A program made the translations under genes and the position numbers. Shown one piece after another: positions 33,711 to 34,298 of a stretch of 64,000 nucleotides of DNA. Under the pieces are notes generated by a model that was given only the letters and a program-made list of their open reading frames with translations, did not search any database and was not told the DNA's origin. This stretch comes from Cytobacillus firmus (GTDB lineage: Bacteria; Bacillota; Bacilli; Bacillales; Cytobacillaceae): contig NZ_CP098323.1 in NCBI RefSeq assembly GCF_023657595.1, positions 954,001-1,018,000 of the forward strand, read 5' to 3'. Every line of letters starts with the position of its first letter. Within the stretch, counting starts at the first letter, position 1.

Positions 33711-34298
33711 GTGATTGATCCGAATACTTCCGTGTTCTGTGCGGGACGGGGAGACCGTGCGCCAGTTTTTATTGCCGATGCTGTCATTGATCATCAAATA
33801 AAAAAAGTCAATCTGGAGAACTATATTGGAAAATGGGTGCTGCTATTTTTTTATCCGAGTGATTTTACATTTGTCTGACCGACAGAATTGGCGGCGGTCG
33901 CCGCTGTGAACCCTTATTTAAAAGCCTTAAATTGCGAAGTCATGTCCATCAGTACGGACAGTGTATATGCACATAAAGTATTTAAGGAAACATCTCCGTC
34001 ATTAAAAAACGTGAATTATCCAATGGTCAGCGACCGGACACATCAAATAAGCAGGGCTTATAGGGTATTGGATGAAAAGTCAGGAGCGGCCATCAGGGCG
34101 TCCGTTTTTATCGATCCCAATGGCATTATCGCGGCAAAGCTCATTTACCCTGGAGAAGTCGGGAGAAATCTGCATGAACATGTCAGAATCATGCAGGGAA
34201 TTCAATATGCGCAGCAGACAGGGAAAGGTGTGCCGGCAAACTGGCAGCCCGGCCAGCAAGGGATTAACAAGGATCCAAACTTAATAGGTAAAATCTAA
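33711..34298 (+). CDS. Selenocysteine-containing peroxiredoxin (AhpC/TSA), UGA = Sec56
   Basis: Read through one in-frame TGA (33876-33878), the gene gives 195 residues of a typical AhpC/Prx1-type peroxiredoxin: WVLLFFYPSDFTFV-U-PTELAAV, VMSISTDSVYAHKV, YPMVSDRTHQISRAY and RASVFIDPNGII. The UGA sits exactly at the peroxidatic cysteine, so Sec56 would be the nucleophile that reduces hydroperoxides. The usual C-terminal resolving Cys (xVCPANW) is Val here (KGVPANWQPG). Only Cys10 and Cys75 remain, so recycling must differ from the standard 2-Cys cycle. GTG start after AAAAGGAGGGGGG. Alternative: a recent nonsense mutation; judged unlikely. Confidence 0.87.
33876..33914 (+). promoter_or_regulatory. 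Candidate bacterial SECIS element
   Basis: A GC-rich hairpin GCGGC-GGTC-GCCGC (33891-33904) has its loop 18-21 nt after the TGA. The loop GGTC contains the G-U pair of bases known to matter in the E. coli fdhF SECIS loop (AGGUCU). Position and loop agree with the SelB-binding rule. Confidence 0.7.

Follow-up and report, generated by a model that had tools for sequence, protein, structure and literature searches.

A separate family of predicted selenocysteine peroxiredoxins without the resolving cysteine in Cytobacillus firmus and its relatives

The gene and its in-frame UGA

The window, by which we mean the whole stretch of 64,000 nucleotides of Cytobacillus firmus DNA that was analysed (host genome, 4.98 Mb), carries a gene for a peroxiredoxin, one of the enzymes that destroy peroxides, whose reading frame runs through a TGA at codon 56. 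The features of the locus are:

33641..33673, + strand: promoter-like block CGTTCA ... GCATAAGTATAT, from an upstream alignment of 20 same-genus loci
33694..33700, + strand: ribosome-binding-type site AAGGAGG, read directly, with the GTG 10 nt downstream
33711..34298, + strand: predicted Sec-peroxiredoxin gene, GTG start, 195 codons, TAA stop at 34296-34298 (sequence reading and Pfam)
33738..33740, + strand: Cys10, N-terminal and optional (74 of 99 family genes, 33 of 39 order genes)
33867..33869, + strand: Thr53 of the PxxxTxxU motif (conserved in all 138 genes)
33876..33878, + strand: codon 56, a TGA in the peroxidatic place, predicted to encode selenocysteine (TGA in 99 of 99 and 39 of 39 homologues)
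33891..33904, + strand: SECIS-type hairpin, 5-bp stem GCGGC/GCCGC, loop GGTC at 33896-33899 (covariation, codon constraint, model match)
34095..34097, + strand: Arg129, which we take to be the active-site Arg known from peroxiredoxins (conserved in all 138 family genes and all 14 Cys homologues)
34230..34232, + strand: Val174 (GTG) at the resolving-Cys place (no Cys in the 138 family genes; Cys in 13 of the 14 Cys homologues)

The original prediction had placed a TGA at the peroxidatic position within FTFV-U-PTE and had seen coding resume in the same frame for 139 residues. Both statements proved right: codon 56 lies in the context PSDFTFV-U-PTE, and 139 sense codons follow it up to the TAA. 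The read-through protein scored 120.5 bits against Pfam AhpC-TSA and 26.1 bits against 1-cysPrx_C, and its structure model (pLDDT 90.9, with residues 1-7 unordered at pLDDT under 50) resembled 2-Cys peroxiredoxins of the PDB, with TM by query of 0.82-0.90 among the 50 rows listed. Judged by this gene, the nearest named relatives are Cytobacillus firmus, C. oceanisediminis and Bacillus sp., and one 99% match is filed as Paenibacillus sp. The promoter-like block is variable across the 20 same-genus loci, being gapped in L021 and differing more in the most distant copies.

Among 193 genomes of the same family, 99 loci in 96 genomes matched the window gene at E 1.5e-61 or better, each with an in-frame TGA; the remaining matches listed were uninterrupted proteins of 36-43% identity. 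Seven of the 99 also showed a TAA or TAG close to their C-terminus in the genome search; two genes, L124 and L160, have an internal stop there as read, and both were retained in the counts. After each of the 99 genes had been read, codon 56 was TGA in every one. In a sample of the order the TGA form occurred in 52 of 397 genomes (E 3.8e-83 or better), the next-best match being a gene of genome G369 that has no such stop; 13 of the 52 carriers were already among the 96, and the order genes counted here are those of the 39 carriers outside the family set. The combined set of 138 genes (99 family and 39 order, together called family genes below) has TGA at codon 56, Thr53 and Arg129 in 138 of 138, and TGA was also found in all 17 named Bacillaceae-type loci, which overlap the other sets.

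The UGA of the window gene sits where homologues have Cys, as is expected of a selenoprotein, and the alignment to Cys homologues that had been proposed as a check put the UGA at their Cys position. Structure alignment A1 comprised 50 of the 99 family genes and three Cys proteins, L160 having been omitted from 51 representatives for its internal stop. In five pairs of genes, pN/pS was 0.07-0.25 before the TGA versus 0.08-0.25 after it; purifying selection is thus alike on both sides, and the downstream part is therefore translated in the same frame. TGA is also the true terminator of 32 of the 138 family genes, so that it serves as both stop and sense codon within one gene.

The hairpin and the selenium machinery

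The GGTC-loop hairpin that the original prediction had noted downstream of the UGA was located at 33891-33904, where GCGGC-GGUC-GCCGC begins 12 nt past the UGA. In an alignment (A2) of the 85 distinct sequences out of the 99, the five stem pairs were intact throughout (425 of 425 cells). Pair 18-27 was GC in 45 sequences, AU in 31 and GU in 9, a single pair changed on both sides, among sequences that are related. The loop was GGUC in 129 of the 138 sequences and AGUU in the other 9 (pair 21-24: GC 129, AU 9), so the outer loop bases covary too. As a control for base composition we compared associations across 861 pairs of third codon positions: the strongest linked codons 62-63 (1.0) and 61-64 (0.84), the next reached 0.56, and the top two are exactly those predicted by the hairpin. 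Codon choice was frozen inside the hairpin, with GCG for Ala62 and GTC for Val63 each in 98 of 99 family genes, in contrast to Ala116, Val90 and Val101, where all four codons were used among the same 99. Over the 11 codons after the UGA, synonymous divergence was 0.11-0.21 in four of five pairs and 0.62 in the fifth; elsewhere it was 0.66-0.93.

The available portion of PMC13188914 gives limits for bacterial SECIS elements of 3-9 nt for the loop, 4-16 bp for the stem and 16-37 nt for the distance from the UGA, with G in the first two loop places, and the window hairpin falls inside them (4-nt loop that starts with G, 5-bp stem, 17 nt between UGA and loop). When it was folded, another of the proposed checks, its folding energy showed no excess over background (z -0.28 and -0.91). 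The minimum-energy register of the window sequence (91.3% of cells paired, one double change) is not the covarying register, which the folds of two variants with AU at pair 18-27 do adopt. No Rfam match was found for the hairpin region in the 801 bases searched. A covariance model (R1) that includes the host copy scored the window hairpin at 66 bits, with 10.9 bits for the runner-up within the window. The model also matched Cys genes (31.7 bits for L202, 17.4 bits for L262), so that its scores follow coding homology in part; as a stand-alone caller of Sec genes it was rejected as insufficiently specific. We regard the hairpin at 33891-33904 as a likely SECIS element.

A search for selA, selB, selC and selD, suggested together with the original prediction, recovered all four from the host genome: selA at 547 bits, selB at 370 and selD at 425, all above curated cut-offs, and the tRNA-Sec gene selC at 58 bits (Rfam cut-off 47), with anticodon tca according to ARAGORN. 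Host selD (L168 1399-2448, minus strand) contains an in-frame TGA in MSREEIVKLTSLSTKGG-U-GCK (GGUGCK), followed by a foldable hairpin (z -1.66), and is therefore itself a predicted selenoprotein. The 12 formate dehydrogenase alpha matches of the host genome, of which none has an inner TGA, added no Sec client to selD and the peroxiredoxin.

The peroxiredoxin gene keeps company with selA. Among the 193 family genomes, 172 have selA above the cut-off, including all 96 carriers of the peroxiredoxin, which is missing from all 21 genomes that lack such a selA (Fisher 2.8e-7, kinship ignored). In the order sample selA was above the cut-off in 181 of 397 genomes, and all 52 carriers matched selA at E 1.9e-158 or better. 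The copy in G369 (L202, 54% identical) has TGT, encoding Cys, at the catalytic codon; the hairpin there is disrupted (GCAGCAATGGCCGCT), with a fold no better than that of shuffled sequences. G369 is absent from the list of 280 genomes with any selA match, and G217, of the same genus, is recorded without one. Since L202 was nested within the Sec family in both trees described below, it looks like a Sec-to-Cys change that went with loss of the machinery, an order of events that we infer.

The in-frame UGA and covarying hairpin, together with machinery genes that co-occur with the peroxiredoxin, lead us to predict with high confidence that selenocysteine is inserted at codon 56. The selenocysteine reading with which this work began is upheld by the presence of the sel genes, by a hairpin under RNA-level selection and by the alignment of Cys homologues.

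Relation to known peroxiredoxins and the missing resolving cysteine

Against NCBIfam PrxU (NF040737) the window protein scored 177.5 bits, with a cut-off of 270, and against AhpC (TIGR03137) 160 bits, with a cut-off of 272. Its clade mates L216, L238 and L239 scored 160-189 bits against NF040737, the long-branch gene L259 158 bits, and three metagenome relatives within 158-189 bits. A search of 398 genomes of the phylum gave a match at 1e-55 or better in 64; 28 further loci from it were read, of which 26 have TGA and two Cys. Sixteen of these 28, with L209 and L210 from the order, were assigned by their C-terminus to a set of 18 PrxU-like genes (7 scored, 13 in the tree), L259 being counted apart; all seven that were scored (L209, L210, L247, L252, L254, L257, L264) passed the NF040737 cut-off, at 329-396 bits, which separates the two groups cleanly. 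The PrxU-type genes of the order, L209 in G340 and L210 in G293, have the hairpin TCAGC-AGTT-GCTGA and the C-terminus ATPSGW or ATPAGW, and G293 has both kinds of gene, PrxU-type L210 and window-family L219.

Trees were made from 97 rows and again from 95 rows after two long branches had been dropped. The 97-protein tree united the window family with its relatives in other classes and with L202 and L259 (support 95), and grouped PrxU with Cys AhpC (support 88); in the 95-protein tree the 13 PrxU rows formed a single clade (support 100) with the window protein outside it. A common clade of all Sec rows was not rejected (p-AU 0.684) and was even the better tree, so we claim no second origin of Sec, and the idea of independent origins in the window family and PrxU was dropped.

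The window family resembles PrxU of Eubacterium acidaminophilum in its Sec within PxxxTxxU, its place on the AhpC/Prx1 side and its missing resolving Cys (missing in 18 of 18 PrxU-like genes), but scores below the NF040737 cut-off and lies outside the PrxU clade. With AhpC, including the host AhpC to which the window protein is 37% identical, it shares the fold and the active-site Thr and Arg, whereas AhpC has a peroxidatic Cys and a resolving Cys (VCPAKW) where the window gene has UGA and Val174. As regards the hallmarks of 2-Cys AhpC/Prx1 enzymes, then, a peroxidatic Cys or Sec together with Thr and Arg was found in 138 of 138 genes, and a C-terminal resolving Cys was not. The tree rows that we take to be Prx6-type 1-Cys peroxiredoxins (14 rows) likewise lack a Cys directly before the Pro of the C-terminal PxxW motif; they have a catalytic Cys, however, and a long branch (0.91, support 100) separates them from PrxU, AhpC and the window family. 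On these sequence comparisons the window family is a separate family of predicted Sec-peroxiredoxins and not PrxU.

At codon 174, the resolving-Cys column, Cys was found in none of the 138 family genes, the 9 relatives that belong to other classes of the phylum, the 18 PrxU-like genes and the single long-branch Sec gene, L259. Of the 14 Cys homologues 13 have it, and the one that does not is the revertant L202. Every Sec gene read thus lacks the resolving Cys, and the window gene is no special case. The original prediction was therefore correct that the residue is gone and mistaken in calling this the unusual part.

Other cysteines are scattered: 107 of the 138 genes have Cys10, while among the 99 of the bacterial family 20 have Cys75 and 38 a Cys at position 5. 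No Cys besides the catalytic position was found in 22 of the 138, and at least those would therefore need an outside thiol. This makes Cys10 and Cys75, both put forward earlier as recycling partners, poor general candidates; Cys10 could be the resolving residue in the 107 genes that have it.

Taken together, we think it very likely that the gene encodes an AhpC/Prx1-type peroxidase in which Sec is decoded by SelA, SelB, tRNA-Sec and SelD with a likely SECIS, and which is probably reset by an outside thiol. UGA 56 would be decoded as Sec by these four components with the help of the downstream hairpin. The roles of the conserved Thr, Arg and fold in peroxide reduction are established for peroxiredoxins, and because Thr53, position 56, Arg129 and the fold are conserved here, Sec56 is predicted to attack H2O2 or organic peroxides and to become a selenenic acid. 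Since the resolving Cys is missing and 22 genes have no other Cys, that selenenic acid would be taken by an outside thiol, whereas in 2-Cys peroxiredoxins the partner subunit captures it. The 1.5-kb flanks (22 largest neighbour clusters inspected) showed no conserved gene for a redox partner, so the choice of reductant rests on analogy: thioredoxin would be the most likely one, because NCBI names the related PrxU family thioredoxin-dependent, and otherwise bacillithiol, because bshA is present in the host genome.

Recycling of Sec56 by bacillithiol and bacilliredoxin in place of thioredoxin, a variant within the outside-thiol reading, we consider possible but doubtful: host bshA scored 576 bits (cut-off 273.7), and selenium glutathione peroxidases are reduced by thiol with a small one preferred, according to the portion of PMC8533274 at hand, yet the nearest Sec family, which likewise lacks the resolving Cys, is the one with the thioredoxin-dependent name. 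Rather unlikely, in our judgement, is a selenoenzyme in which Cys10, or the Cys5-Cys10 pair of many members, resolves through a Se-S bond with Sec56. The frequency of these residues (Cys10 in 74 of the 99 family and 33 of the 39 order genes, Cys at position 5 in 38 of 99) speaks for such a resolver, but the 22 genes with no Cys outside the catalytic position and the unordered residues 1-7 of the model (pLDDT under 50) argue against it.

Under the outside-thiol reading, the predicted enzyme would perform one-selenol chemistry like that of a glutathione peroxidase on a peroxiredoxin scaffold. The likeness to selenium glutathione peroxidases, as these are described in the available part of PMC8533274, is one of proposed chemistry only (one selenol and an outside thiol); they belong to another protein family than the window peroxiredoxin. 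More broadly, and with somewhat less than even confidence, we suggest that selenium frees the peroxiredoxin from its resolving Cys, that Bacillaceae may retain the Sec system largely for this one-selenol, glutathione peroxidase-like enzyme, and that Sec and the lost resolving Cys could form one evolutionary package, returning to Cys only upon loss of the machinery. The strict tie between Sec and the absent resolving Cys among the genes read, together with a natural Cys revertant, makes the benefit of selenium to a peroxidase testable at the bench.

Public entries, earlier surveys and neighbouring genes

A search of 5.8 billion public proteins gave 5974 matches, of which 120 were listed and 32 compared (24 full-length, 8 short). 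Among the matches listed, at least four entries were over 80% identical, all of them pieces of 118-136 residues, and the eight short entries, those four included, start at the equivalent of TTG 33888 or later, that is, after the UGA. The closest public entries thus lack the active site, so the enzyme is easily missed; the source names among the matches listed were peroxiredoxin, AhpC or redoxin protein. Of the 24 full-length entries, nine are Cys proteins with a resolving Cys and 15 have Trp at the place of the UGA (P0002, P0004, P0007-P0011, P0015-P0017, P0028, P0032, P0042, P0043 and P0061), the Trp apparently arising from translation at the source with UGA as Trp.

These entries bear on the two weakest readings. 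That the TGA arose by nonsense mutation or an error of sequencing, and that the product is a 136-residue protein from TTG 33888, as the starts of the eight short entries might suggest, has a negligible probability given TGA in 138 of 138 genes, a short form that misses the catalytic motif, equal constraint on both sides of the TGA and a covarying hairpin. Decoding of the UGA as tryptophan or some other amino acid is just as improbable, since the 15 Trp entries fit source translation with UGA as Trp, 32 of 138 genes terminate with TGA, the gene co-occurs with selA, and the one sense replacement seen inside the family, in G369, is Cys. Pseudogene, sequencing error and UGA as Trp were accordingly all rejected on the conserved TGA, the covariation, the constraint and the TGA terminators.

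The separate Sec-peroxiredoxin family that we predict is widespread, in 96 of 193 family genomes and 52 of 397 sampled order genomes (13 shared). Its named carriers include Cytobacillus firmus and C. oceanisediminis, which are aerobic and culturable. They contrast with the tie of Sec forms to low oxygen drawn in the 2006 survey (PMC1794560, in the portion available), where three selenoproteins are listed for Bacillales, unnamed in that portion. Elsewhere, again in the portions available, a survey predicted 91 Sec-peroxiredoxins across 78 organisms (PMC5029168) and a marine count gave 43 (PMC1088965), and the experimental case cited for a Sec-peroxiredoxin is PrxU of one strict anaerobe. The window family is not named in the available portions of PMC9312934, PMC13188914, PMC1794560, PMC5029168, PMC8533274 and PMC1088965; given the tallies in PMC1794560, PMC5029168 and PMC1088965, as far as those portions go, members may already have been counted.

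Upstream of the window gene lies a divergent ORF of 62 residues (33360-33548, minus strand; MSRGVHFNHKKK...), and such ORFs stand upstream of the peroxiredoxin in 41 of the 138 loci. A relative of this ORF at L049 had no Pfam match. A search of PHROGs returned only a weak family of unknown function. The neighbours vary by genus: a DnaJC28-domain protein, a gene for an aromatic amino acid lyase, or subunit I of cytochrome bd. The last of these, a subunit of an oxygen-linked oxidase called by Pfam PF01654 on a piece of one copy, lies downstream in 21 of the 138 loci (L040, L110 and 19 others).
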